In this document: piece by piece, positions 2,553 to 17,775 of the stretch
Position numbering within the stretch: the first letter of the stretch is position 1
Layout of the letters: each line of letters starts with the position of its first letter
Origin: Phycisphaeraceae bacterium
GTDB taxonomy: Bacteria > Planctomycetota > Phycisphaerae > Phycisphaerales > Phycisphaeraceae
Direction of reading: 5' to 3'
NCBI GenBank assembly: GCA_029260615.1
Contig: JAJDCX010000090.1
Coordinates: 1-64,000 of the forward strand
Length of the DNA: 64,000 nt
Program-made: the position numbers and the translations under genes
The notes under the pieces: model-generated
Databases searched by the model: none
The model's input: the letters and a program-made list of their open reading frames with translations, nothing else
What the model was told of the DNA's origin: nothing

Positions 2553-4427
2553 TTATCGCCGGCGGGTCAATAGCTGTAGCAAGGCGGGCAGCAGGAGCAT
2601 GTCGCCGATGAGGGCGGCGGTTACGGCCAAGGCCATCAGCACCCCGAACTCTGCGGTCGGGCGGAACGGTGACATCACGAAGAGAAACATGCACGCGACG
2701 GTGATAAGTGAACTACCCACGCAGGGCCGCCAACAACTAAACATGACCCGCCGAAGGTCACGGTCACGATGAAATGCCGCAACGATATGTAGCGTGTCGT
2801 CGATCGCCGTCCCCACCGCGATCGCCCCGATCAGCAATGACGGCAGGCTAAGACGCCAACCCAACAACGTGACGACCACGACTGTTACTGCAACCGGGAA
2901 CAGGTTCACTGCTGACCCTATGAGTGCAAGCCGGGGGTCTCGACCTCCGATGCACCAGGTTACCACGCCGGCGACCAGGACCATGACTGGAAACGACACC
3001 ACCGCGACCCGTGCCACGCCCAACGACACGCTGTGAAGCTGCGCTGCCACACCCGACCAGATTAGCTCGACGTTGTGTTCTTCGGCCCAGCCCTGCCAGT
3101 CGTCCTGCGCCGCAACCAACTGAACAAGGGCGCTGCTATCGGCTAAGCCCAAGTACAACGATCCCGCGCCCGCTCCCGGAGGACCCAGCAAACTCACATC
3201 AACCAGCAGGCTAACGCCCGGCGTTGCGGCAAGCATTTCAGCAGCATCTACATCGCCTCGTACCTGCACCTCAAACGGCAGCATCCCGACGAGCCTGCTA
3301 TTGAGTTGCTCATAATCACTGCGCACTTGCGAAGTTTCAGGGAAATAGCTGATCGGATCGCTTTGAAGCTGTAGCCAAGGCACACAGGCGATCGCCACGA
3401 CGGTGACTGCGGTGGCTAAGGCGACCACGACCTTGGGACGGCCGATGGCTATCGCACTAGCGGCGATTCGTAATGAATACAGCCGAGCGTGATGTGGCAT
3501 TACGATGCCCCCGGCCTTGCCGGTGGGTCGAACCAGCAACATGACCGACGCCCAGGTCATCATCACCCCCACCGTGCCCCAGATAGCGAAGGAGCGGATC
3601 GGCGGGAACGGGCAGAATACAAACACACCGATCCCCCCCGCCGTCGTCAAGGCACACAGAGCCAGTGTCCCCGATATGCCCCGCCTTAGCGCCCGGTGCG
3701 CCGCGAATGAATACCCAAGCGCCATCATCAACGGCCAAACCATCGACAAGACCATGTCCATCGGCACGCTGAACCAAGAGATGATGCCGACCAACGCGAC
3801 CTGACTCCCGACGATCGCAGCGGTTGCACAAGCGGCCATCCGCACACTACCCACAACCCAATAAAGCAGCACCGCACCTACGACAACAATCATCCCCGAG
3901 ACCCAAGGCATCCGCCGTTGACTCCAATCACTTAATGCCACCGTGAACACGGCCGGCCCCCCCACCGCTACATGATCCCCGTCATCATCTGACTCGTCAC
4001 GCAGCACGCCCCGGATGGCATGAAGAAATACGTCATCACGAACACCGGCACGGGCGAAGCAGAACAGGCCGATGTAGTTGGGGCCACTGAAAGCGTCGCT
4101 TAAGGTGACCGATCGCATCAGGGGTGCAAACCGGTTGGCCGCTCCCGGGGACACACAAGCAGAGACTTCATCAAGTGACTCGAGGTGCTGGCCCAGCCGG
4201 TCCGGGTCAAACGCACCTGTCGCCCCGCCGATGACAACGTAACTTGCAATCGCGTCGTGTCCGGCAAGATCAGGCACCCAGTCTCGTAGCGAGTTTTCGA
4301 CACGGTATCTGCTCAGCCCGGCGGCGGCGAGGCATACTGCGATCAGCCAAATGGTCCAGACACCCAGACGCCGATTAATCAATCGACCTGGGCAAGAGCG
4401 TGGAGATGGTGTCACGTTTTCATTCAA
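2553..4427 (-). CDS. RND/MMPL-family (hopanoid-transporter-like) membrane exporter
   Basis: 624 aa with many TM segments in two clusters; RND-type layout; overlaps the upstream gene. Confidence 0.75.
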   Translation of the reverse strand: MNENVTPSPRSCPGRLINRRLGVWTIWLIAVCLAAAGLSRYRVENSLRDWVPDLAGHDAIASYVVIGGATGAFDPDRLGQHLESLDEVSACVSPGAANRFAPLMRSVTLSDAFSGPNYIGLFCFARAGVRDDVFLHAIRGVLRDESDDDGDHVAVGGPAVFTVALSDWSQRRMPWVSGMIVVVGAVLLYWVVGSVRMAACATAAIVGSQVALVGIISWFSVPMDMVLSMVWPLMMALGYSFAAHRALRRGISGTLALCALTTAGGIGVFVFCPFPPIRSFAIWGTVGVMMTWASVMLLVRPTGKAGGIVMPHHARLYSLRIAASAIAIGRPKVVVALATAVTVVAIACVPWLQLQSDPISYFPETSQVRSDYEQLNSRLVGMLPFEVQVRGDVDAAEMLAATPGVSLLVDVSLLGPPGAGAGSLYLGLADSSALVQLVAAQDDWQGWAEEHNVELIWSGVAAQLHSVSLGVARVAVVSFPVMVLVAGVVTWCIGGRDPRLALIGSAVNLFPVAVTVVVVTLLGWRLSLPSLLIGAIAVGTAIDDTLHIVAAFHRDRDLRRVMFSCWRPCVGSSLITVACMFLFVMSPFRPTAEFGVLMALAVTAALIGDMLLLPALLQLLTRRR

Positions 4428-5634
4428 CTATCATCGCTCGGCTGTCCAGGGTGTAGTAGGTCTTGCGCCAGCCGACGACCCGCCGGATCAGCATCCACCA
4501 GAACGCCCTGGCGAGCAGCACCGAGACCACCACCACGGAAAGCGGATAGAGAAGCAGGTATCGGCGGTCGCAATCTCCCAGCTTCCAGAACCGCCAACTC
4601 ACCGCATACATCAGCACCAGGTGCGACAGGCACGTCCCAGCCGAGACCCAAAGCATCGGGTCGATCTTGGGCGAGACGATGAGTTGGTAGACCAAGTACG
4701 GCCCCACCACAAACGGCAGTAGCGACCCGACCATCAACCATGCAATGCTCAACGCAAGCTTTGTCTTGCTGCGCAGCGCCCCAACAAAGATGCGGGTCCA
4801 CCCATCACACACCCCGACGAGGTCCGTGTACATCCGCACGCCGACCAGATCACGTCCACCAGCGGTCCAGCACCGCACACCCATCTTTGAAGCACGCTCG
4901 GCCAAAGGGACATCTTCGATGATCGCACGCCTGACCGATTCATGCCCACCGATCTTTTCGTACACGTCACGACGGATCAGGATGAACTGCCCGTTAGCGA
5001 AGGCGGAACCCGACCCGGCGCGGCTGTGATTGGCTCGGCCGAACCACAACGCCATCACCGCTGCACACAGAGGGATCAGCATGTGTTCCCAGAAACTATC
5101 TGCCAGATGCCTGGGCCAAAGCGAAAGCATCGAAACATCCCGACGCTGCGCCTCGTCCAACGCCGCTCGCACTGCCCTGGGTTGTAGTGTGCAGTCGGCA
5201 TCGACAAACAGCAGCCAGTCGTCGGTGACTTCTCGTGTCGCGGTCCACAGGGCATGAGATTTGCCTAGCCAGCCCGCGGGCAGGCGATCGATCCGCATGA
5301 CACGGAGTCGATCGTCTTCTGCCGCTATCGCGTCGGCCACGGCGGCGGTCGTGTCTTCGCTACGGTCATCGACCACCACCACACGCAGCCGTGGGTAGTC
5401 CTGTGCCAAAGCCCCCGACAGGGACGCGCTAATCGACTCCGCTTCGTTACGCGCGGGGATCAGGATGCAGACACTGGGCGGCTCACCTGAGTCGGGAACG
5501 TCGTCCTGAGTATGATGGCGCGGCTTGAGCATGATGCCTTGACGCAACGCCACACGCTGGGCGTACAGCAGTGCCGCCCAGACGTTGCAGATCACACCCC
5601 AGCCTGCCAACGGTATCAGGGTTGTCCAGTCCAT
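4420..5634 (-). CDS. family 2 glycosyltransferase, HpnB-like
   Basis: PSVCILIPARNEAESISASLSGALAQDYPRLRVVVVDDRSEDTT...LFVDADCTLQP; C-terminal TM segments. Confidence 0.85.
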   Translation of the reverse strand: MDWTTLIPLAGWGVICNVWAALLYAQRVALRQGIMLKPRHHTQDDVPDSGEPPSVCILIPARNEAESISASLSGALAQDYPRLRVVVVDDRSEDTTAAVADAIAAEDDRLRVMRIDRLPAGWLGKSHALWTATREVTDDWLLFVDADCTLQPRAVRAALDEAQRRDVSMLSLWPRHLADSFWEHMLIPLCAAVMALWFGRANHSRAGSGSAFANGQFILIRRDVYEKIGGHESVRRAIIEDVPLAERASKMGVRCWTAGGRDLVGVRMYTDLVGVCDGWTRIFVGALRSKTKLALSIAWLMVGSLLPFVVGPYLVYQLIVSPKIDPMLWVSAGTCLSHLVLMYAVSWRFWKLGDCDRRYLLLYPLSVVVVSVLLARAFWWMLIRRVVGWRKTYYTLDSRAMIVE

Positions 5635-7229
5635 TTCGCGGCACTCTGTGGGTTAGAAGGATCGGGCAGACGCAAGAGGTGTTTCAAGAGATCCGGGTCG
5701 TCAAAGTCGTAGTGATCCCAGTGGATCATCTGCGTGCCGCGTTGCCTTGGTTGGCCGGAACTCAGCAGGCCCGCGGGCGTGAAGAACACGCCTTCGAGCC
5801 TTTGTGCGCCCTTGACCAGGCCGTTGTCGTAGAACATGCTGACGATTCGGCCGTCGGGGGTTGTTAGCTGTTCCAACTCGTCGTAGGGACGCAGCGTGTA
5901 ACCGATCTGGTCAACCGCCTCGTGCTCATGCCCCTGCTCATCCATAGCTACGTTAATAATCCCGTGCCAGCCGGCGCGGTTGCGCACCACGGGGCGGTCA
6001 CCTCGGCCTTTCATCTGAACGACTTTCGGAACAATCGTATCGAACTTCCAAGGCACACGCCGTTCGATAGCGAAGCGTTTGCCCTTCGCAGGCTTGCCAA
6101 ACGACCGCATCGCCGCCGCTTCCAAATCTGATGATGGGTACAGCCTGTGATAGCAACCGCAGTTGTAGAGCGTCTCAAATGCGATCGGCTCATCCCTCTG
6201 GTCCAGTGTCACACGCAGGGTCAACCCTTCGGTATGCCCGGCCTCGGGGTCGTTGGACTTAAGCTCGGGGTGCCTGGGGTACCAGTAGGTGTAGGTGAGT
6301 TGGGTGTGGGGCCGATCGGTGATACGGATATGGCGGGTGTAGGCGTAGACCGTCGGGTTGGAGGGGTCGATCTCGATCGTGTTTTCATCGGGGGCGACGA
6401 CCCGGCCGAGGCTATCGACCGAGCGTTCATAAGAAACAGTTCCCGGCCGCTCTTGCACAATCACCGGGGCGAAGGCCGTAAGCAAGCCCCATTCACGCTT
6501 CGACATTCCGTCCGGCGGCGTCGTGTCCGCAAGGTCCGGCAGGTAGCGCACCGCTGAGTCAAAAGGCTCGTCCAGGTCACCGCGGTACTCGTTGGAATGG
6601 ATATTCAGGATCGCCAAAGTCGAAGGGATCGCGAATATCGCCCAGGAGATCGCCCTGCCAGCCTTGCCCTGGAGCTTGACGGGTTTTTCGATCCGCTTGG
6701 CCAACGGGCTCAACACCTCGCGGACCTCCCGGACCTGCTGCGCAGCGGTGACACGGCGGCGGAGGTTCCCATACCCCGAGTCGGCATCACGGATGAACTG
6801 GTTCTTAGCCATCTGCCTGGTCTGCTCATCCTGAGACAGCGCTGTGACGAAGTAAGCCCCGATCAGTTCTTCCCAGCCTGCGTCACTAAGACGGTCCAGT
6901 TCGTTAATCGTGGTGCGGGCCGCAAGCTCGTGTGCCGACTCCAGAAAGGCCAGTGCTTGTGCTTTGGCGACAGCCGGGTCGTCGCTTGATAGTGCGGTGT
7001 CGAGTTGCTGGCGGATGGCGGCGTCGATCCTCAGGCCCGGCCAACCCTTAACAAACTGGGCCTTGGCGTCGCGGGATTTATGTGTGACGGTGATTTGGTT
7101 GACCCCGTCGGTAAACCTCTGGGGGTGCCCAGCTGTGCAGCCGGAGACGACAACCGACAACATCGCCGTCATGAAACCCATCCACACCACGGGACGTATT
7201 TTATCAGGCCGTTGCTTCATATATCGCAT
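5616..7229 (-). CDS. uncharacterised lipoprotein
   Basis: 537 aa; N-terminal hydrophobic segment with VVVSGC lipobox; overlaps both neighbours. Confidence 0.75.
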   Translation of the reverse strand: MRYMKQRPDKIRPVVWMGFMTAMLSVVVSGCTAGHPQRFTDGVNQITVTHKSRDAKAQFVKGWPGLRIDAAIRQQLDTALSSDDPAVAKAQALAFLESAHELAARTTINELDRLSDAGWEELIGAYFVTALSQDEQTRQMAKNQFIRDADSGYGNLRRRVTAAQQVREVREVLSPLAKRIEKPVKLQGKAGRAISWAIFAIPSTLAILNIHSNEYRGDLDEPFDSAVRYLPDLADTTPPDGMSKREWGLLTAFAPVIVQERPGTVSYERSVDSLGRVVAPDENTIEIDPSNPTVYAYTRHIRITDRPHTQLTYTYWYPRHPELKSNDPEAGHTEGLTLRVTLDQRDEPIAFETLYNCGCYHRLYPSSDLEAAAMRSFGKPAKGKRFAIERRVPWKFDTIVPKVVQMKGRGDRPVVRNRAGWHGIINVAMDEQGHEHEAVDQIGYTLRPYDELEQLTTPDGRIVSMFYDNGLVKGAQRLEGVFFTPAGLLSSGQPRQRGTQMIHWDHYDFDDPDLLKHLLRLPDPSNPQSAAKWTGQP

Positions 7230-8442
7230 CGATTACTTCTCCTATCTCATGCCTCTCAATTGTCAAAGGTGGCATCCAAGTCAGGACATTGCGGTCGGGT
7301 CCAGACTTCCCAGCTAGGATGCGCAGGTCCTTAAGACGTTCCAAAATCAAATCACATCGTTGGGCGGCCGGCTCACCATCGGAGTTAATCACCGGAACCC
7401 CGATCATCAGGCCCATGCCGCGCGGCTGCCCGAGATGAACCCGCTTCGCGGACAACTCGGTCAGTTGCTTCATGAGATATTGGCCGGACTCCTGGGCGCG
7501 TTGGTCTAGGTGGTGTCGTGTGTGGTAGTCAATCACAGCCAAAGCCGCCGTCGCGTTAACGGGGTTTCCGCCGTGGGTCGAGGCACCGGGACGGGTGTAG
7601 CTTTGGGCGATCTGGTCGGTCGTGATGAACGCCCCGATCGGGAAGCCGTTGCCCATGGCCTTGCTGACCGTCATGATGTCCGGGACGATACCGAAGTGTT
7701 CGCAGGCGAACCACCGCCCGGTCCGGTTGAACCCGGTCTGTATCTCATCGAGTATCAACAACACGCCATGGTCATCGCAGAGTTGGCGGACCCGCTGCCA
7801 GTAGCCGTCGGGTGGGACGTTGATCCCGCCGTTGCTCTGAATGGGCTCGGCAATGAAGGCCGCGGTCTGGTCGGCGTGCTTTGCAAACTCATCCGCCAAT
7901 GCGTCGGCATCCCCAAACGGGATGTGGCTCACGTCGTCGGGGGGATACGGATCGGTGCGCCACATCGGCATGCCGGTGGTGTTCATCGCCCAGCGTGTCC
8001 GCCCGTGCAGGCTGTTGGTGGTCGCGATGATCCTGGGTTTACCGGTGTGAAGTACACTGGTCAGCAGCGCACCCTCGACGGCCTCACTGCCACTCGCGCA
8101 GAAGAAGCTGCGACTAAGTTCGCCCGGAGTCAGTCCGGCCAGCGCCTTAGCCAATCGTAAGATCGGGTCGGTCAGGTAGATCGTTGTTGTGTGCTGAAGC
8201 GTCTGTATCTGCTCGATCGCAGGTCCAATGATGTCGGGGTTGCAGTGCCCGGCACTCATCACCGCCACGCCGCTTAAACAATCCAGATAACGCCTGTCCA
8301 TATCATCAAACAGGAAGCAGCCCTCGCCACGAACGAACACGGGCGGGTCTTTGTAAAAATGATAGACGCAGGGCATCAGGTACTCGCCCTTCAAGGCCAA
8401 TAGTTCCTGCGCCCGGCTTGCCTTGGCGGGGGCACTACCCAT
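7204..8442 (-). CDS. class III aminotransferase (PLP-dependent)
   Basis: Motifs SGSEAVEGALL, LLILDEIQTGFNRTGRWFACEHFGIVPDIMTVSKAMGNGFPIGA, STHGGNPVNATAAL. Confidence 0.9.
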   Translation of the reverse strand: MGSAPAKASRAQELLALKGEYLMPCVYHFYKDPPVFVRGEGCFLFDDMDRRYLDCLSGVAVMSAGHCNPDIIGPAIEQIQTLQHTTTIYLTDPILRLAKALAGLTPGELSRSFFCASGSEAVEGALLTSVLHTGKPRIIATTNSLHGRTRWAMNTTGMPMWRTDPYPPDDVSHIPFGDADALADEFAKHADQTAAFIAEPIQSNGGINVPPDGYWQRVRQLCDDHGVLLILDEIQTGFNRTGRWFACEHFGIVPDIMTVSKAMGNGFPIGAFITTDQIAQSYTRPGASTHGGNPVNATAALAVIDYHTRHHLDQRAQESGQYLMKQLTELSAKRVHLGQPRGMGLMIGVPVINSDGEPAAQRCDLILERLKDLRILAGKSGPDRNVLTWMPPLTIERHEIGEVIDAIYEATA

Positions 8443-9313
8443 CGATCACCTCGATCCGATCCACCTTCGGCCCGATGCCTAACGCCGCAACACGGTCGAA
8501 CATCACACGCATCGCCTGGCGTACATCCTCCTGCAGATGCAGCGTGTCCTCGTTGCTGAACATCTCGACATGCTGGGCGGCGCAGCCTCGTCCGAACTTA
8601 CTGGCAAACTCAAAGGCCTCATCGAAATGGTCTTTGCTCCACTGTAGCGACCGCCGGCATGTATCCGCGATGTCGTTGCAGAGGTCTTGCCCGAGCGATT
8701 TGCGGACAATATTCAGGCCCACCGGAAGCGGAAGGCCCGTGTCATCGCACCATGCGGCACCCAGGTCCGCTACTTTGCTCAAGCCCTTCTCGCCGAAGAA
8801 TAATAGCTCTTCATGGATCATCACCCCGGCGTCAAACTCGCCGGCCGCGATCACGTCGGCGATCAAGTCGTAGCGGTGTTCGATGAACTCCGCCCCGGGG
8901 CAGTACATCATCGCCAGCGCACCGCCGGTCGTGGGAATGCCAGCAACCGCGACACGCTTGCCCCGTAGTTCGTTAAGTGTGTTGTAGTTCTTAGACACCA
9001 GCACCGGGCCGTACCCCCGTCCGACACTGTTGCCGACCGACAACACGGCGTAGCGGTCAGCCAATGCGGGGTAGGCGACCGACGACACGCCGACCACATC
9101 AAACGCCTCCTGCGCCGCGGCACGGTTCAGGGCGATAATGTGGTCCCGCTCAAATTTAGCGGTGTAATCGGGTGTGTTAAGCCCGACCCGATCGAACTCC
9201 CAGCCGTAATAGTTGAAAGCGTCATCGCTGTCAGGGGTGTAGGCGATGCTCAGTGTGTGCGGGGTGACCCCAGCCATCTGCTTGCCGATTAGGTTGTTGG
9301 AAATAATGGTCAT
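8435..9313 (-). CDS. MqnD/MqnA-family protein (1,4-dihydroxy-6-naphthoate synthase-like)
   Basis: SIAYTPDSDDAFNYYGW..., VVGVSSVAYPALADRYAVLSVGNSVGRGYGPVLVS, GVMIHEELLFF: MqnD-like periplasmic-binding fold. Confidence 0.75.
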   Translation of the reverse strand: MTIISNNLIGKQMAGVTPHTLSIAYTPDSDDAFNYYGWEFDRVGLNTPDYTAKFERDHIIALNRAAAQEAFDVVGVSSVAYPALADRYAVLSVGNSVGRGYGPVLVSKNYNTLNELRGKRVAVAGIPTTGGALAMMYCPGAEFIEHRYDLIADVIAAGEFDAGVMIHEELLFFGEKGLSKVADLGAAWCDDTGLPLPVGLNIVRKSLGQDLCNDIADTCRRSLQWSKDHFDEAFEFASKFGRGCAAQHVEMFSNEDTLHLQEDVRQAMRVMFDRVAALGIGPKVDRIEVIDG

Positions 9314-11364
9314 ATCAGGGTCTCTTTTTGATTGTGAAGCTGTCGCATGACGTTTACTGTTGTGGCTGAGTGAACTACCGAGCGGGGGTACGGCCCCAGG
9401 TTAATCGGCCTAGGGCTTAAATCCTCGACACTGCTCCAGCGTGTCTGCCATGAATCATCGTCGAGACATCGCCCGGCGAGTTGATCGAGTCGGTGGCGGT
9501 ACGCACCGGTCACACGCAGGACGTGATCCGTCTGGTCAAACTGACCGTCGATGCGGACCGACGCGATACCCGGACGGCAGAACCGATCGAGGATAGGCAT
9601 CGCCCCGAGGTCGTAGCCGGTCAGCAGGTGGTTTCGGCAGTGCTGGTCGGCGATGACCGGGCGTACTTGGCCGTGCTTGTCTTTCAATCCGAAGTCGACG
9701 TGCCGGCAAGGCCCACGGCAGACATCTTTGCGGCCCACCGATGAGCCGTGCAATGCGATCACACAATGGTCGATCAACATCCCCAACAGCGGGCCGTGTA
9801 TCTGCGCCTCGAGTGGGAGCGTCGCACCATCGGCCAGCTCGAACAGATCGGCAAGCCCCGCCTCGGTCGAGATGCAACAGGCATCGGCACCCAACTCGGC
9901 GAGCAACGCCACCGCTGCGCTGTTCATCATGTTGAACCCAACGTCGGCCACGATCGATGACGACGGGCACAGCCGCGCGGCCAGCGCCAGCGTACCGGGA
10001 TGATGAACCAGAACATAATCGAGTTCGGCCCCCGTAAGCTGATTCAGAACCCACTGGGCCTCTGCCCATTCACGATCGGTCGTGATGCGCGGCGTGCGGA
10101 GTCCAATTTTTGCGCCGGCGCTATGAGCCAGATCAATCGCATCCGTTATAGCCTGGAGTTGCCAGTGTTCGCCGCTGCGTTGGGATAGCTCGGCGGCGAG
10201 GTAGACGCGGTCGGCACCGGCTTCGATCGCCGCAGCCGCGGCCTCTGCACCCGACACACACACAGCCAATTCGATTAACGGGGCGCTCGCGGCCACGGTT
10301 TCACGGTCCGCAGAAGGTATGACGGCCGTGGTGTCTACATCGCTGGGCTCGGCATACCCGTTACTTAACTGCAGGGGCTCGCGACGGCCGTCGGCATCCA
10401 CCACGTCCCGGTGAGATGCGCCGCCAAGAATCGTCAGCGTGGACAGGCGGCGTACCTGATTGCGGTAAACGTTCTCAATTCCCTCGACCGCCAGCGTGAA
10501 CGACGGGGGGCACTGGTAATAGGCGTCGATGGCCTGTCGGTAGCTGTGAACGATCTCACGCAGATAAGCCGCGTCGCGCATCCTGCCCTCGAGTTTCATG
10601 CAGTGGATACCCGCCTGGACGATCTGCGGGATGTGCCGGATCAGGCAGAGATCTTTTAGCGCCAACAGGTGCCCGCCACCGACACGGCCGACGGCCTGCC
10701 CGTCGTCAAGCCGGACCAGATCGTAGTCCCACCGGCACGGCTTCATGCATTCGCCACGGTTGGCGCTCTTGCCAAACAGAACTCCCGAGGTGTTGCAGTG
10801 CCCGCCATGCGCCACACACATATCACCGTGAACAAAGCACTCGACCTCGATGTCGGCCCGCCGTCCGATTTCGCCGATCTGCGACAGGCTGATGTCACGG
10901 GATGTGATGACCCGGCTTACCCCCAGACGCTTAAGCACCAAGGCGTGTTCATGATGATGTACGTTCATCATCGTACTGGCGTGCAGCGGCGTGGTAACCC
11001 CCAACTCCCGCGCCAGACGGATCGTTGCCAGGTCATGCACGATAATTGCATCGGCGCCTACCGCGTCGATCGAAGCGATCAGGTCTGCCGCCTTCCTAAG
11101 TTCAGACTCACCGATCAGGGCGTTGACGGTCACATAGAGACGGCGGCCGGCTTCATGCACGAACTCGACTGCCTGACGGAGTTGCTCTTCATCGAAGTGG
11201 AAGTCCTTGCGGTGTTGCCGCATGTTCAGCGTCTTGGTGCCTAGATAGACGGCGTCGGCACCGGCTTCGATAACAGCCTCGAGCGCATCGCGGCGGCCGG
11301 CGGGGGCTAACAGTTCGATCTGGCTGGTTAGGCTGGTAATGCTCTCGTTGGTGGGCATGATCAT
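9310..11364 (-). CDS. peptidase U32 family protein, two tandem U32 domains
   Basis: ELLAPAGRRDALEAVIEAGADAVYLG; FVHGDMCVAHGGHCNTSGVLFGKSANRGECMKPCRWDYDL; second Cys set DHCVIALHGSSVGRKDVCRGPCRHVDF...DQHCRNHLL. Confidence 0.9.
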   Translation of the reverse strand: MIMPTNESITSLTSQIELLAPAGRRDALEAVIEAGADAVYLGTKTLNMRQHRKDFHFDEEQLRQAVEFVHEAGRRLYVTVNALIGESELRKAADLIASIDAVGADAIIVHDLATIRLARELGVTTPLHASTMMNVHHHEHALVLKRLGVSRVITSRDISLSQIGEIGRRADIEVECFVHGDMCVAHGGHCNTSGVLFGKSANRGECMKPCRWDYDLVRLDDGQAVGRVGGGHLLALKDLCLIRHIPQIVQAGIHCMKLEGRMRDAAYLREIVHSYRQAIDAYYQCPPSFTLAVEGIENVYRNQVRRLSTLTILGGASHRDVVDADGRREPLQLSNGYAEPSDVDTTAVIPSADRETVAASAPLIELAVCVSGAEAAAAAIEAGADRVYLAAELSQRSGEHWQLQAITDAIDLAHSAGAKIGLRTPRITTDREWAEAQWVLNQLTGAELDYVLVHHPGTLALAARLCPSSSIVADVGFNMMNSAAVALLAELGADACCISTEAGLADLFELADGATLPLEAQIHGPLLGMLIDHCVIALHGSSVGRKDVCRGPCRHVDFGLKDKHGQVRPVIADQHCRNHLLTGYDLGAMPILDRFCRPGIASVRIDGQFDQTDHVLRVTGAYRHRLDQLAGRCLDDDSWQTRWSSVEDLSPRPINLGPYPRSVVHSATTVNVMRQLHNQKETLI

Positions 11365-11383
11365 GGTGTGTGCTCCAACTAAA

Positions 11384-12475
11384 TCAGTAAAGCCCGGCGG
11401 CCGGGGGGGTGTTCGGATTGGATAACGGATGGGGGTTATCGACGCCGTGCATCACAAACCCGTTGGGAACGTTGGTGGGCGGTGTGATGAGCCTGGCGTT
11501 GTCACGCTCAAGGAGGCGGACGATCAGGAAGGTCTCGTCCAGCCGGGTAACACGTAGCTGGCCGGGTTCGCCGAACGGCGTACTCTTGCCCATTGCGTCG
11601 AGGGTCTCGAAGACAAGCCGATCCCCCATTGGGAAATAGGCGGGCGTTCTTCCGGGTTCAACGCTTAGCTCCAGGCAGCAACCCAGCAGCGTGTTGCCGT
11701 AACCTGAAAGGTGTACCGCGTTGGGGAAAGACTCGGTCTGCAGTGAGCGGAGCAGGTCGATATCTAGGGCCATGCCACCGTAATGGACACCGCGGATGCG
11801 GAGCCTTTGTGACTCGGTCATCACCTGCGCTAGACGGGCCAACACTGCGGGGGTGGCAAACAGCACGCCGATGTCTTGCGTGTTAATCACATCCATCGCC
11901 TGATCGACAACATGCTGGGCGTAGCGTTGACTGGCGATGCTGTCATTGGGCAACTTGCGGGCCCAGCGCGGATCGAAGTCAACACTGAACGGCTCGGGGC
12001 TATCAACACGGCGAGCCAGCCGGGGTGCGGCCTTGGCGATGATGTGCGGACCGCTTGGGCCAATGAAGAGCCAACGCTCGTTGCGAGGGAACCCGACGTG
12101 CGCTGCCGCAAAAGAGAACGGCTCGATAAACGCAGACTCAAACTCATCCTCACGGTAGGCGGTCCACGTCCCGGGCCCGGTCGTCCCGCCGGTCTGCCCC
12201 AGAACCATCTCGCCTATCCGGTCGTGGAATCGACGGGGGATGTAGTCGCAGAGAGGACGTTGCTGGAGGTCGTGGGCGCTAAGGTTGCCCAGCATCACGA
12301 GGTCTTGAAAATGCTTGACATCATGGCGTGGATCGACACCAAGCCGTTGGGCCCGGTCGATCCAGAACGGTGTGCCCCACTTAGAATCGAAGTGAACATC
12401 CATCAGGTGCCCAATCCGATCGTGATTGACGCCGGGCTCGTAGACTTCACCAAGGCAGGTGGCTGGTTGTGTCAT
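11384..12475 (-). CDS. AMP-dependent ligase / phenylacetate-CoA ligase-like adenylating enzyme
   Basis: 363 aa; LGQTGGTTGPGTWTAYR phosphate-binding-like motif and later GYGNTLLGC segment. Confidence 0.7.
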   Translation of the reverse strand: MTQPATCLGEVYEPGVNHDRIGHLMDVHFDSKWGTPFWIDRAQRLGVDPRHDVKHFQDLVMLGNLSAHDLQQRPLCDYIPRRFHDRIGEMVLGQTGGTTGPGTWTAYREDEFESAFIEPFSFAAAHVGFPRNERWLFIGPSGPHIIAKAAPRLARRVDSPEPFSVDFDPRWARKLPNDSIASQRYAQHVVDQAMDVINTQDIGVLFATPAVLARLAQVMTESQRLRIRGVHYGGMALDIDLLRSLQTESFPNAVHLSGYGNTLLGCCLELSVEPGRTPAYFPMGDRLVFETLDAMGKSTPFGEPGQLRVTRLDETFLIVRLLERDNARLITPPTNVPNGFVMHGVDNPHPLSNPNTPPAAGLY

Positions 12476-13170
12476 GCCCGCCCCCTCTTGGAAATAGTTT
12501 GCCCTATAAAGTCAGCGCAAGCCTCGACGATGCTCGGCTCCATACCTCGGTAGAAGTGCTCGCCGCCCGTGATCAGATACCGCTTTGTGGGCGGATCGAG
12601 CGTGTCCAGCCACTGCTGTGTCACGTCAACGGGTGTAGCAAAGTCGTCGTCACTGTAGATGACCATGCTCGCCAGGTCGGAGTCCTTCAACGACGAGAAG
12701 TCGTGACGCGCAACGGTCGGTGAGATCATCACAAGCGCATCAAAGCAAGGGATTGCTCCCGACACCAGAGCGTATGCCCCGAAGCTGTACCCGATGCCGA
12801 TCCGTGGCAGATCAAACTGCGTGCCCAGCCAGTCGGCCGCGCAGCGGGCTTCCTGTGCCATATTTGGGTCCGCTGGGGACGTGCCTGTTTCCCAGAACTG
12901 CCGCATATTTTCCGCGACATCGACCGGCTCGCCGCCGCTTTTGCCGACCCCGCCGTAGTTAAACCGCAGTGTCACGAAGCCATGTGCCGGGAGGTCCAGC
13001 GCCAGGCGTTCGATGACGTTGTTGTTGACCGCACCGCCCATCAGGGGATGAGGATTGGCGATCAGCACGACAGCGAAAACAGACCCCTGATCGGGGTAAG
13101 TCAGTTCACCCGCCAATCGGCCATTAGGCCCGGGGATATAGACCGATTCTTGTGTCAGTTGGGCAGTCAT
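12472..13170 (-). CDS. alpha/beta hydrolase (dienelactone-hydrolase/KANL3-like)
   Basis: NPHPLMGGAVNNNVIERLALDLPAHGFVTLRFNYGGVGKSGG...GIGYSFGAYAL nucleophile elbow. Confidence 0.85.
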   Translation of the reverse strand: MTAQLTQESVYIPGPNGRLAGELTYPDQGSVFAVVLIANPHPLMGGAVNNNVIERLALDLPAHGFVTLRFNYGGVGKSGGEPVDVAENMRQFWETGTSPADPNMAQEARCAADWLGTQFDLPRIGIGYSFGAYALVSGAIPCFDALVMISPTVARHDFSSLKDSDLASMVIYSDDDFATPVDVTQQWLDTLDPPTKRYLITGGEHFYRGMEPSIVEACADFIGQTISKRGRA

Positions 13171-14765
13171 ACCGTCAGCCCCTCCCGCTGAAGCGTCTCG
13201 CGGTCACAAGGGAACTCCTGATTAAACTTATGCAGGATCATCGCCATCTTCAGCGCCTGCTCGATGTTGCCAGCAACTCGCGCCTGGCGTTTGAAGAATG
13301 CCTCTTGGGGGTGTACCTCCCCAGCGATCGCACGCCAGAACACCTCGCTGTCAGTCCGGTAGGTGAAGTCTTCCTTAAACGTGTTCTCGCCGCGGTGTAC
13401 CTCCACAAGCCGACCGCGATCAAACCGACAGACCCATTGGCCGTCAGCCACATCCTCGATAATGAAGCGCATCGTCACGGTTGCCGCCGTCGTCTTCGCG
13501 GTTTCCGAGCGGCTGATCCGATCGGGCAGGAATGACTTGAAGTAGGCGTCGTAGAGCGGCGTATCTTCCGCCGATGCGTTGTTGGCGGTATCGTTGGTTA
13601 CTGGGTGGTTGCCCCTATCGACCACCTTGCCACGGCCCCATCGGCTTGCATCGGCGTAACTAAATAGCTTGGACAGGGCTTGAAGATCATACGAAGGGCA
13701 GAACATTTTGGCCGACCGCTCCAACAGATCAGCCTCGCCGCGATCAAAAGTCGGGGTATCGACAAAGTAGTGCTCGATGGGTCGGCTCACTTCATAGAAC
13801 AGCCGTTCGGTCTCGTTCATCACCGTGGGGTCAAAAGTGCCCGGGTCCACGAAACGTCCGCCGGTGATGTGGTAATACGACTCAATGGCATGCCTGATCT
13901 GCGCGTTGGTCGGTGGGTCGGGGTGGGTCAGGTGGTAGACCCGGCCATGCAATCGGCGGTCGGTCACCGCGTGCGCGATCATCGCAGTAACATAATCCAC
14001 TGGCACAATGTTCTGTCGATCACCGGCGCGGCCTCGGATGCGCAAAGACACACGGACACACCCACCACCCACGGATGTCCTCGGTGCCCCATCGTGTTGT
14101 TCAGCCAGGATCTGTGACGCGCGGGCAGACAGATAGAACCCCGAGAACTTCGTCGCCCGGCCGGTCGCGTACTCACCGACCACGATCGATGGGCGGTAGA
14201 CCGTCAGGGTTCTGCCGGGGGCGGCGTGTGACCAGGTCTCACAGGCCCGCTCGACCTGCCACTTGGTTCGCTCGTAAGGGTTGTGAAACTCCGGGCGTTC
14301 GCCTTCGATTGTTTCACGGACCTGGCAGTGCGCCTTGCCGCAGCGGTAGGCCGAACTGACCAGGTGCAGGTCGTTGATGCCGTGTGTCTGTGCCCAGCGA
14401 AGCAGAGCGAAAGTCCCCGTCACGTTCGTCCGCTTAGGCTCACCCATCGGGTCGGACTCGAACCGCGTCGATGCTGCGGTATGGATGATAGAGCGGATAC
14501 CCTGCCCGGTGGGGTCGGGCAGGCCACAGACCAAATCGCCGGTGAGGAGGACTACTTGGCCGGATGAAAGCTGTTCATCCAGAACCACTCCAAGCTCACA
14601 GAGCATGTCGGCCAACCGGCGTGTGGAGCGATCCAGCGGTGACCGCAATAGCACCGCGCACCGTACTTGCCGGCGTAGCAGATCCGCGAGCAGATAGTGC
14701 CCGATGAAACCGGTCGCGCCCGTTAATAAGACACGGCTATTGTCGGCGGGTGGTTGATTCATCAT
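13167..14765 (-). CDS. NAD-dependent SDR / thioester-reductase (NAD_binding_4)-type protein with C-terminal extension
   Basis: VLLTGATGFIGHYLLADLLRR Rossmann motif, SSAYRCG...NPYERTKWQVE (YxxxK); ~180 aa unassigned C-terminal region. Confidence 0.85.
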   Translation of the reverse strand: MMNQPPADNSRVLLTGATGFIGHYLLADLLRRQVRCAVLLRSPLDRSTRRLADMLCELGVVLDEQLSSGQVVLLTGDLVCGLPDPTGQGIRSIIHTAASTRFESDPMGEPKRTNVTGTFALLRWAQTHGINDLHLVSSAYRCGKAHCQVRETIEGERPEFHNPYERTKWQVERACETWSHAAPGRTLTVYRPSIVVGEYATGRATKFSGFYLSARASQILAEQHDGAPRTSVGGGCVRVSLRIRGRAGDRQNIVPVDYVTAMIAHAVTDRRLHGRVYHLTHPDPPTNAQIRHAIESYYHITGGRFVDPGTFDPTVMNETERLFYEVSRPIEHYFVDTPTFDRGEADLLERSAKMFCPSYDLQALSKLFSYADASRWGRGKVVDRGNHPVTNDTANNASAEDTPLYDAYFKSFLPDRISRSETAKTTAATVTMRFIIEDVADGQWVCRFDRGRLVEVHRGENTFKEDFTYRTDSEVFWRAIAGEVHPQEAFFKRQARVAGNIEQALKMAMILHKFNQEFPCDRETLQREGLTV

Positions 14766-15388
14766 TCGTTCTCGGCCCGTGCGTCATCCTGAAGATCGGC
14801 GTCAAGACTCTGGAGGTAGGTAATCACAAGCCAGACCTGCTCCCGTGCCAGTGTGTCGTTAAATGCGGGCATCTCGGAGAAGGTGCCGTCGCTATTGGGG
14901 GTTTCTGCGGTGTAGCCCCCGGTGATCTTTCTGAACCACGCACGGGGCGCACCGTGATGGAGCGTGGAAGCAAAGCGGTGGGAGAAGTCGTGGAAGTCGG
15001 CACCCGCGAGGGCTTCGGGCAATCGAGTGCCCCGGCCGTCGGCGTTCTGGCCGTGACAGTCGGCACAGTGCTTCTTGTAAACCACCGCGCCACGGCTGAC
15101 CGCAACGGGGTCTTTACGGGCTTTAAATGGGTTTTTAGTCGTACTCAGCGCCTGGTCCCGCGCCACGGCTTGCTCCGCACTGATCCCCAATTCTTCGACA
15201 CGCATCGTCAGGAACGCCTCGGCCGGGTCGTTCTTTTGATCTGCCAAGGCCTGGGTGTAGGCAGACTCATCCACCACCGTGATCGCCCGATCAAGCGACT
15301 GCGGACCGCTGCAAGCGACAAGGGCCAAGCATGTGGCAACCAGTGATCCAGATAACAGGGCTACAACTCTGATCGAATACTGATGCAT
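14762..15388 (-). CDS. c-type cytochrome, probable lipoprotein
   Basis: N-terminal signal with LVAC lipobox; VVYKKHCADCHGQNADGRGTRLP (CxxCH), EMPAFND distal Met. Confidence 0.85.
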   Translation of the reverse strand: MHQYSIRVVALLSGSLVATCLALVACSGPQSLDRAITVVDESAYTQALADQKNDPAEAFLTMRVEELGISAEQAVARDQALSTTKNPFKARKDPVAVSRGAVVYKKHCADCHGQNADGRGTRLPEALAGADFHDFSHRFASTLHHGAPRAWFRKITGGYTAETPNSDGTFSEMPAFNDTLAREQVWLVITYLQSLDADLQDDARAENE

Positions 15389-15486
15389 GTTTCAGGGGTC
15401 CTGTACTTTGGGGGAAGAAACGGAGGGCGGGAGTCGTTATGACTCACCTCTATATATCGGCACATCTCACTAATTGTTTGATTCTG

Positions 15487-15515
15487 TGCAAACATTGCAG
15501 ACTGCAAGAATTGCA
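15487..15515. promoter_or_regulatory. paired palindromic operator candidate: TGCAA-N3-TTGCA x2
   Basis: TGCAAACATTGCA at 15487-15499 and TGCAAGAATTGCA at 15503-15515, 16-bp period, in the divergent intergenic region 15389-15611. Confidence 0.5.
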
Positions 15516-15611
15516 GGGCTATGGCTGCTGATGCGGTATGTGGTATCACTAGGTCCCGGGCCTAGCGGTTGTGGTACGGTTACAATGTCAGGGGTTAAAC
15601 AGGAACCGTCG

Positions 15612-17192
15612 ATGACTCTGAAAAACCGGCTACTGGTAACAACCTCGGTGATGATCGTGAGTCTGCTGGCGGTCACAGGAGCCTCGCTGTGGGTGATGTC
15701 GGACATCGCCGGGAGCCTGGGCTGGGTCGCCGGTGAATACAACGAACTGCGTCTGATCGATCAGACGGGCAACGACCTGGCGGATGCGAGCGGCCTGCTG
15801 CGGAGTGATCGGCCGGACTTCGAGCTGATCGACGCCAAGCTGGGCAAGGCCATGCTCAAGCTCAACGACTACATCGCGTTGCAGGTCGAGGGAGAATACG
15901 GGCTGGGCAGCGTGACGGAGGGCCACCAAGACGCGGAGCAGCGGACCACCTACACGATTGCCCATGCGTTGGAGCCGATCACCGCAAGAGCCCATGAACT
16001 GAAACTCATCGCCACATCAACCTCGCCCGATGCAACGGACACCCAGGCAGATATCGATGAGATGTCCGCTTCGATCAGGCGTATCCGATCAGACCTGGAG
16101 GCCCTTGCGGCCGAGGGCGACGCCGCCGTGTTGGACGCCCACGACCGTGGCCGGACCGTGCTGAAGCGATCCGTGCTGACCCTCTCGGCGGTGAGCTTCC
16201 TGGCAGCGTTTATCGTGGCGCTTAGCGGATTGGTGCAATACCGAGCCGTCGTGCCACCACTGGCGCGTATGCGTGACCGTGTCCGTGAGATCGCATCGGG
16301 TCGGCTCGATCAACGCCTGTCGCACTGTGGCCGCGACGAGTTCGCCGACCTCGCCCTGGACTTTAACCGGATGGTCGCCGAGTTAGAAGCCCTGTACCAC
16401 AACCTCGAAGAGCGGGTCGAGACCAAGAGCAGGCAACTGGTCCGTTCTGAGCGTTTGGCGAGTGTGGGCTACCTCGCGGCGGGCATCGCCCATGAAATCA
16501 ATAACCCCCTTAGCATAATCGCCGGCTACGCCGAGCTTGCGATCAAAGACCTCCGTGCAAAACAACACGACACCGAGTCACTTGAAGGGTTAGAAGTCAT
16601 ACGCGACGAGGCCTTCCGGTGTAAGCGGATCATCGAGAAGCTACTGTCACTGATGCACAGCCCCGACGCCCCCCGTGGTAAAGTCAGTCTTAGTGCCGTG
16701 GCCCACGATGTCGTGGCGATGGTAAGGGGCCTAAAGCAATTCAATAGCCGGGGGCTGGATATCCAGATCGACTCCGCACAGCCCTTGGAAGTACTGGCGC
16801 ACGAAGCCGAAATGAAACAGGTACTCTTGAACCTGACCATCAACGCAATGGAAGCGGTCAGCGACGGCCACGGCCGGGTAGAGATTTTCGGCAGATTGAA
16901 TCACCAAGAGGTCGAATTAGGTGTGACTGATAACGGCCAGGGCATGTCCGCCGAAGTGCTCTCCCACGCCTTCGAGCCGTTCTACACAGACAAACGCGGC
17001 TCCCATGAACAGGGCAACGGCCTGGGGCTATCCATCGTGCACGCCATCATCCAGGACCACGGCGGGCGGATCGAAGCCCACAGCGATGGTTCCGGGCAAG
17101 GCAGCCGCTTCACTCTTTACCTGCCCAAAGCGAGTATTCGGACGACCGAGGAAAATCATGACCGATCCGACGCCAACACCTCCACCGCCTAA
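15612..17192 (+). CDS. sensor histidine kinase (periplasmic sensor, HAMP, HisKA, HATPase)
   Basis: MTLKNRLLVTTSVMIVSLLAV TM1; HAMP region; LAAGIAHEINNPLSIIAGYAELA H-box; NGQGMSAEVLSHAFEPFYTDK...GNGLGLSIVHAII. ORF opens at 15474 but ATG 15612 is preferred. Confidence 0.9.
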   Translation: MTLKNRLLVTTSVMIVSLLAVTGASLWVMSDIAGSLGWVAGEYNELRLIDQTGNDLADASGLLRSDRPDFELIDAKLGKAMLKLNDYIALQVEGEYGLGSVTEGHQDAEQRTTYTIAHALEPITARAHELKLIATSTSPDATDTQADIDEMSASIRRIRSDLEALAAEGDAAVLDAHDRGRTVLKRSVLTLSAVSFLAAFIVALSGLVQYRAVVPPLARMRDRVREIASGRLDQRLSHCGRDEFADLALDFNRMVAELEALYHNLEERVETKSRQLVRSERLASVGYLAAGIAHEINNPLSIIAGYAELAIKDLRAKQHDTESLEGLEVIRDEAFRCKRIIEKLLSLMHSPDAPRGKVSLSAVAHDVVAMVRGLKQFNSRGLDIQIDSAQPLEVLAHEAEMKQVLLNLTINAMEAVSDGHGRVEIFGRLNHQEVELGVTDNGQGMSAEVLSHAFEPFYTDKRGSHEQGNGLGLSIVHAIIQDHGGRIEAHSDGSGQGSRFTLYLPKASIRTTEENHDRSDANTSTA

Positions 17193-17775
17193 CCGACGCG
17201 TATTAGTCGTCGAGGACGAGCCCAGGCTTCGGGCAATGCTCCTGCGCGCCCTACCCGACATGGGGTTCGAGCCCATCGGCGCAGCCAGCGGTGAGGAGGC
17301 GCTTCTGAGCATGCAAGAAGAACCGGCCGCCATCGCCGTACTGGACCTGAACCTCCCAGGGATCAACGGCATGACCGTCTTTGAGCGGTTACGCGAGCAA
17401 TGGCCCGACACCCAGGTCGTCATCATGACCGGCTACGGCGACCTCGACGCCGCACAGCAAGCGATCCGGCTTAACGTCGCGGACTTCCTCACCAAACCCT
17501 GCACGCTCGGCGACCTGGAACAGGCCCTGGACCGCGCTTGGCGCCGCAGATTAGACGAACACGACACCCCCCCCACCACCGCCCCACCGCACATCACCGC
17601 AACCGATCCGAACGCGGCTCCTGACCCAACGCGCACCATCCAAAATGTCGAAAAAGAACTCATCCTCGCCGCCCTAAATCGCAACAACGACAACCGCACC
17701 GCCGCCGCCCGCGAGCTAGGCATCAGTGTTCGAACACTGTATTACCGGCTATCCCAGTACGACATCGAGCGATAG
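17158..17775 (+). CDS. response regulator with C-terminal Fis-type HTH (PrrA/ActR-like)
   Basis: RRVLVVEDEPRLRAMLLRALPDMGFEP...VLDLNLPGINGMTVFERL...VIMTGYG; C-terminal NDNRTAAARELGISVRTLYYRLSQY; 35-nt overlap with kinase gene. Confidence 0.9.
   Translation: MTDPTPTPPPPNRRVLVVEDEPRLRAMLLRALPDMGFEPIGAASGEEALLSMQEEPAAIAVLDLNLPGINGMTVFERLREQWPDTQVVIMTGYGDLDAAQQAIRLNVADFLTKPCTLGDLEQALDRAWRRRLDEHDTPPTTAPPHITATDPNAAPDPTRTIQNVEKELILAALNRNNDNRTAAARELGISVRTLYYRLSQYDIER

Follow-up and report, generated by a model that had tools for sequence, protein, structure and literature searches.

The window analysed here, a stretch of 64,000 nucleotides from a Phycisphaeraceae bacterium (contig JAJDCX010000090.1 of assembly GCA_029260615.1, positions 1 to 64,000), carries ten overlapping open reading frames on its minus strand at 15388-2553 (Table 1). 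The nine junctions between them measure -4, -4, -4, +19, -4, -8, -26, -19 and -8 nt in the order of transcription, in agreement with an initial sequence-only reading that had described a ten-gene operon with overlaps of 4-26 nt and one gap of about 20 nt. Domain searches of the ten proteins against Pfam and NCBIfam also uphold the gene identities proposed in that reading, with additions; the alpha/beta hydrolase and the ligase are weak in Pfam, and the exporter, which is short for the RND/MMPL type, reaches 20.7 bits for MMPL against a threshold of 20.5. To judge by sequence, the operon unit should take in the conserved divergent histidine kinase and response regulator upstream, the kinase family (cluster c7) being kept in 20 loci. 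Promoter and terminator scans of the operon gave results at chance level only.

Table 1. Genes of the operon, in the order of transcription, and the divergent regulatory pair upstream.
Feature	Position	Strand	Basis
c-type cytochrome, 208 aa, first operon gene	14762..15388	-	Pfam Cytochrom_C, E 2.3e-9
Short-chain dehydrogenase/reductase (SDR; NAD_binding_4, thioester-reductase-like) with C-terminal SCP2 fusion, 532 aa	13167..14765	-	Pfam/NCBIfam
alpha/beta hydrolase, 232 aa	12472..13170	-	weak Abhydrolase_6, below cut-off
EhpF-type adenylate-forming enzyme without C-terminal domain, 363 aa	11384..12475	-	EhpF profile match
Double U32 protein, 684 aa, two predicted Fe-S sites	9310..11364	-	two U32 domains
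MqnD2, 292 aa, paralogue clade of 1,4-dihydroxy-6-naphthoate synthase	8435..9313	-	PF02621, E 1.8e-53
Class III aminotransferase, 412 aa	7204..8442	-	PF00202, E 5e-94
Lipoprotein, family unknown, 537 aa, invariant CGC motif	5616..7229	-	without Pfam/NCBIfam match
GT2 glycosyltransferase, HpnB/CruG-like, 404 aa	4420..5634	-	HpnB 154.7 bits, below cut-off of 379
Short MMPL/RND-type exporter, 624 aa, ~11 predicted transmembrane segments	2553..4427	-	MMPL at threshold; transmembrane scan
Divergent sensor histidine kinase, start uncertain	15474..17192	+	NCBIfam two-component kinases
Response regulator, Fis-type C-terminus	~17158..17775	+	NCBIfam; likely start is Met52 of the listed open reading frame

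A profile built from five orthologues of the ligase matched only EhpF in the PDB (E 3.5e-39). Profile positions 12-363 aligned to EhpF residues 15-366, that is, over the full length, and the P-loop (TGGTTG-type) and a YGxT motif are conserved in a 58-row alignment. By sequence, the operon ligase is a member of the EhpF family of ANL adenylating enzymes. Relatives of EhpF activate aryl carboxylates, polycyclic ones included, for reduction, GriC/GriD acting on 3-amino-4-hydroxybenzoate (PMC10179220), and by analogy the operon enzyme would adenylate an aryl carboxylate. A single-domain EhpF-like enzyme likewise stands beside a reductase in EhpF/EhpG (phenazine, D-alanylgriseoluteic acid) and GriC/GriD (grixazone) (PMC11278526, PMC10179220). 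However, the EhpF partner EhpG is an aldehyde dehydrogenase, whereas the operon carries a thioester-reductase-like SDR with SCP2. The SDR matched MxaA in the PDB (4u7w, E 1.8e-12) and its Ser137, Tyr164 and Lys168 are almost invariant (58-row alignment); in the loci of anammox bacteria SCP2 is a separate gene.

In the double U32 protein, Cys 183/190/206/210 and Cys 534/549/553/576 are invariant in 26 homologues. UbiU and UbiV, the two U32 proteins that act together with the SCP2 protein UbiT in the O2-independent ubiquinone pathway (PMC6747719), also have four conserved Cys residues per U32 domain for an Fe-S cluster. Unlike in UbiTUV, both U32 domains are fused here and SCP2 is fused to the SDR. 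The first U32 domain has the general U32 motif CX6CX15CX3C as opposed to CX6CX16CX38C in UbiU, and the NCBIfam scores were 186.5 for UbiU (cut-off 440) and 74.7 for UbiV (cut-off 275). These sub-cut-off scores and the Cys spacing rule out a simple UbiTUV homologue; since the cut-offs failed, the double U32 protein may act like UbiU/UbiV without being a member of either family. Among the other operon proteins, the aminotransferase has an invariant Lys261 (32 sequences) and the lipoprotein an invariant Cys357-Gly358-Cys359 (23 sequences). A confident AlphaFold2 model of the lipoprotein (predicted local distance difference test score, pLDDT, 88) matched none of the folds in the PDB at E below 0.001.

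The ligase profile, run against 84,980 species genomes, returned 67 loci. They fall in Phycisphaerae, other Planctomycetota (with the anammox carriers Scalindua/Brocadiaceae/Anammoxibacter among them), Hydrogenedentota, Gammaproteobacteria, Magnetococcales, Lentisphaerae and Verrucomicrobia; two actinobacterial matches look like unrelated outliers. Conserved synteny, the check to which the sequence-only reading had pointed, was borne out: gene set and order are kept in relatives, and because they recur in tens of genomes the operon grouping exceeds chance. Composition was counted in the 37 loci in which the ligase is flanked by 5 kb or more on either side, with partners sought within 9 kb and up to four genomes entered under two locus identifiers. 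An SDR gene was present in 34 of these, an aminotransferase in 26, an alpha/beta hydrolase in 26, an MMPL gene in 25, the lipoprotein in 22, U32 in 17, an MqnD-family gene in 15 and GT2 in 14. The core of the cluster is the EhpF-type ligase, SDR-SCP2, class III aminotransferase and MMPL exporter, often with the double U32 protein. Cytochrome c, GT2 and U32 are accessory members, GT2 because it is found in only ~15 loci; the cytochrome c family is the first or a near gene in ~10 loci, and the alpha/beta hydrolase and MMPL families occur in ~35 and ~32. The cluster is conserved across several phyla and appears to be previously undescribed, no existing description having been found in the literature searched, which leaves out most subscription journals.

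The MqnD-like protein was placed in a tree of 79 sequences, in which the operon-type proteins (MqnD2) form one group with 100/100 support, apart from canonical MqnD. A second, canonical MqnD is encoded elsewhere in the window genome (G000:C34), as is an MqnA-range protein (C40). The canonical copy and the distinct clade rule out that the operon gene is the ordinary MqnD of the organism. His167 and Thr128-Thr129 of MqnD2 are invariant and align with conserved MqnD residues, which makes MqnD2 probably an active enzyme. The window genome and the carriers of its class have MqnD2 in addition to canonical MqnD, and two gammaproteobacterial genomes encode both types at one locus (L087/L143 and L091/L141).

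The futalosine pathway is generally regarded as serving menaquinone synthesis, and a single branch to a natural product has been reported. There is a strong link between this pathway and the cluster. MqnC/E-family proteins were present in 43 of 45 carrier genomes and PF02621 proteins in 42 of 45. Within the window's class, every one of the 14 genomes that carry a close orthologue of the ligase has MqnD, compared with 137 of the 234 others (Fisher p 7.5e-4). In the order to which one gammaproteobacterial carrier belongs, 3 of 147 genomes encode genuine MqnA and MqnD, and precisely these 3 have the ligase; in Magnetococcia, searched as a prospective test, 2 of 48 genomes have MqnC/E, and again it is these 2 that have the ligase. 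The naive probabilities of these co-occurrences, 1.9e-6 and 8.9e-4, are optimistic given shared ancestry. One of the Magnetococcia carriers, G475, not known before the search, has an mqnD-B-E-A-C operon (L167, G475:C22), in which B and A are placed from order and length, and a locus (L168) with the order SDR-MMPL-ligase-aminotransferase-U32-DUF547, DUF547 being a provisional label. A further Magnetococcia locus, L166 (G275:C110), has only MqnA-like and MqnC/E-type genes, as against the apparently complete set in G475. It has been reported that the futalosine pathway is absent from Pseudomonadota but that a Magnetococcia metagenome-assembled genome (MAG) has only five futalosine genes (PMC11707229), and the present findings agree with that report.

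The link extends to gene order. Versions of the cluster from Gammaproteobacteria, Hydrogenedentota and Sedimentisphaerales have mqn genes inside the cluster. In Gammaproteobacteria an operon of lipoprotein, alpha/beta hydrolase, MqnD, MqnB-like, MqnE, MqnA and MqnC genes adjoins a divergent SDR-MMPL-ligase-aminotransferase-U32 set. At L082 mqnE and mqnC are fused into one gene, which is preceded by an MqnA-like gene of 254 aa and has a 4-nt overlap with the SDR gene; the run then goes on into multiheme cytochromes. The classical Men pathway was ruled out as the source of a naphthoate, MenB not being above cut-off in the window genome or in the exceptional carriers described below.

Related loci also carry genes for electron transfer. 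The anammox loci read SDR, SCP2, MMPL, ligase, U32, TPR, aminotransferase and cytochrome b in two halves, followed by 5-heme, 10-heme and 7-11-heme cytochromes. Cytochromes with 5 and with 12-22 hemes follow the core in L078, L082, L089, L090 and L092, and a 5-heme cytochrome follows it in G009.

The sequence-only reading had proposed a single uncharacterised pathway combining adenylation, reduction, transamination, Fe-S chemistry and export, and the domains and synteny support a pathway of this type. Four features had escaped that reading: the futalosine link, the EhpF type of the ligase, the SCP2 domain and the multiheme cytochromes encoded at related loci. On balance, we think it slightly more probable than not that the cluster is a conserved biosynthesis-and-export system that draws on the futalosine pathway and converts an acid of the 1,4-dihydroxy-6-naphthoate (DH6N) type into an exported naphthoquinone-type redox compound. 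We infer the substrate, each reaction, the product and the role of the cluster as follows. The starting acid would be DH6N or a close relative made by MqnD2, and its carboxylate would be adenylated by the EhpF-type enzyme. The SDR-SCP2 reductase would reduce the resulting acyl-adenylate, as activated acid, to an aldehyde, from which the class III aminotransferase would form an amine; a route through an amide instead of an aldehyde is also conceivable. Where present, the double U32 protein could act like UbiU-UbiV and hydroxylate the ring in an O2-independent reaction, and the glycosyltransferase may decorate the product. The MMPL exporter and the lipoprotein would then carry the product through the outer envelope or insert it there. 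This putative naphthoquinone-type carrier would serve c-type cytochromes. More tentatively, the product may be an aminated naphthoquinone, distinct from menaquinone, that is made from DH6N and exported as a dedicated electron carrier linking the inner membrane or periplasm with multiheme c-type cytochromes in several phyla, anammox Scalindua included, which would also explain the partial futalosine sets of Magnetococcia.

Several observations weigh against this proposal. No carrier protein for a thioester was found, and the cytochrome of the window operon is of the single-heme c type only. The operon itself holds only MqnD2, the mqn genes of the window genome being unlinked to it, and because MqnD2 coexists with MqnD its own reaction is hard to place. 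In a subset of Phycisphaerae an ArsS-like radical SAM fusion replaces MqnD2, the aminotransferase and U32. Three carriers (G269, G270 and G271, with loci L078, L081 and L082) have MqnC/E but only a single PF02621 protein, whose position in G271/L082 marks it as MqnA-like; lacking a second PF02621 protein, they apparently have no MqnD. Neither MqnC/E nor MenB was found in the distant carriers G279 and G281, in which the core may accept another acid or the MAGs may be incomplete; most carriers are MAGs, for which the absence of a gene is weak evidence.

It is doubtful, in our view, that the cluster instead tailors prenylated menaquinone, with ring hydroxylation or amination giving a new membrane quinone as rhodoquinone arises from ubiquinone. 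The likeness of SCP2 to UbiT and of the two U32 domains to UbiU-UbiV, which act on prenylated intermediates (PMC6747719), would fit such a role, as would the genes for cytochrome b and multiheme cytochromes that lie downstream in anammox bacteria. The window genome and the planctomycete carriers have UbiA-family proteins, and the planctomycete carriers have canonical MqnD as well. However, a UbiA-family search of gammaproteobacterial MAGs showed that G283 and G285, which have mqnA-E, have no family members besides UbiA (4-hydroxybenzoate octaprenyltransferase) and CyoE, each scoring above its cut-off, and hence no MqnP or MenA was found in them. No clear MqnP or MenA was found in G280, where the further family matches are CyoE-like or EboC-like, or in G284, where the third is a weak PRK13592-like protein; G287 gave no UbiA-family match at all. 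These absences, each weak singly in a MAG, collectively suggest that the gammaproteobacterial carriers do not turn the naphthoate into menaquinone. Moreover, finished menaquinone offers an aryl-acid adenylating enzyme no carboxylate.

It is unlikely that the core (ligase, SDR, aminotransferase and U32) uses some other aromatic or acyl acid and that the futalosine link reflects a shared need for low-potential respiration. The two carriers without futalosine or MenB genes, the ArsS-type clusters and the varied acids accepted by the EhpF-like family are in keeping with this explanation, but it does not account for the operons shared with mqn genes in Gammaproteobacteria and Sedimentisphaerales, nor for the exact co-occurrence in ubiquinone-type proteobacteria, where the futalosine genes have no other evident role. 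A pathway that makes a modified hopanoid or another lipid for RND export, towards which the sequence-only reading had leaned, is very improbable. The GT2 resembles HpnB, MMPL genes are present and SCP2 is a lipid-binding domain, but GT2 is accessory, HpnB is far under its cut-off (Table 1) and the exporter only weakly resembles HpnN (20.6 bits versus 752). Squalene-hopene cyclase was not found in the window genome (best match E 6.1e-6, far below cut-off), nor in most carriers tested, which comprised other same-class carriers and four gammaproteobacterial ones. The hopanoid version is mostly refuted, and the missing cyclase and low Hpn scores exclude hopanoid handling for the window genome. Finally, MqnD2 and U32 are each missing from many loci, but it is hardly credible that they are unrelated passengers in a carboxylate-to-amine operon when 25 of the 26 well-flanked aminotransferase loci also carry a U32 or MqnD-family gene, MqnD2 keeps its catalytic residues and U32 its Cys residues.

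A precedent for diverting the futalosine pathway to a naphthoquinone already exists. The PM100117/PM100118 (gon) cluster of Streptomyces caniferus has its own MqnA, C, E and D, which divert DH6N to a naphthoquinone unit, and further mqn copies lie elsewhere in that genome (PMC4763440). Some versions of the present cluster similarly have mqn genes within them. Unlike these, gon directs the synthesis of a large polyketide synthase-derived macrolide with sugars, by acyl-CoA ligase and polyketide synthase extension; it is without U32 and without the combination of EhpF-type ligase, SDR reductase and aminotransferase, and respiratory cytochromes are unreported there. No polyketide synthase was found among the operon genes or their recurrent neighbours. 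The cluster uses or neighbours MqnA-E, and MqnD2 is a paralogue of MqnD, yet it differs from the futalosine menaquinone route in its extra genes for activation, reduction, transamination and export, and in that no prenyltransferase was found in the gammaproteobacterial carriers. If the proposed synthesis of an exported naphthoquinone is correct, it would constitute a second, respiratory-type use of the futalosine pathway, spread over multiple phyla, in organisms without an evident menaquinone prenyltransferase. It would also account for the set of "only five genes" in the Magnetococcia MAG (PMC11707229) and suggest a concrete candidate for an as yet unknown redox carrier in those anammox bacteria that have multiheme cytochromes.

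Other recurrent genes were seen at these loci. The ArsS-like radical SAM protein (TIGR04167 over cut-off) has an N-terminal part of ~430 aa and lies directly before the SDR at L052:5493-7751, an arrangement repeated in L045, L047, L048, L049, L055, L056 and L058; a 181-aa relative of its N-terminal part adjoins MqnD in Hydrogenedentota (L145:9005-9550). In the proteobacterial versions a ~200-aa protein, grouped by size and position, recurs beside the lipoprotein or SDR (L140:6980-7579, without a Pfam match; L169:6480-7097; L168:4914-5606), and a conserved, secreted-looking protein of ~255 aa, the one provisionally labelled DUF547, follows U32 (L136:7907-8668 and L168:13871-14638). A second, distant family of EhpF-type ligases is common in Phycisphaerae and is not tied to futalosine genes. 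Its members at L163:9823-13546 and L160:9680-12331 adjoin an aldehyde dehydrogenase and an iron-containing alcohol dehydrogenase, or a class III aminotransferase; the aldehyde dehydrogenase beside the planctomycete paralogue at L163 is the type of partner seen in Ehp.

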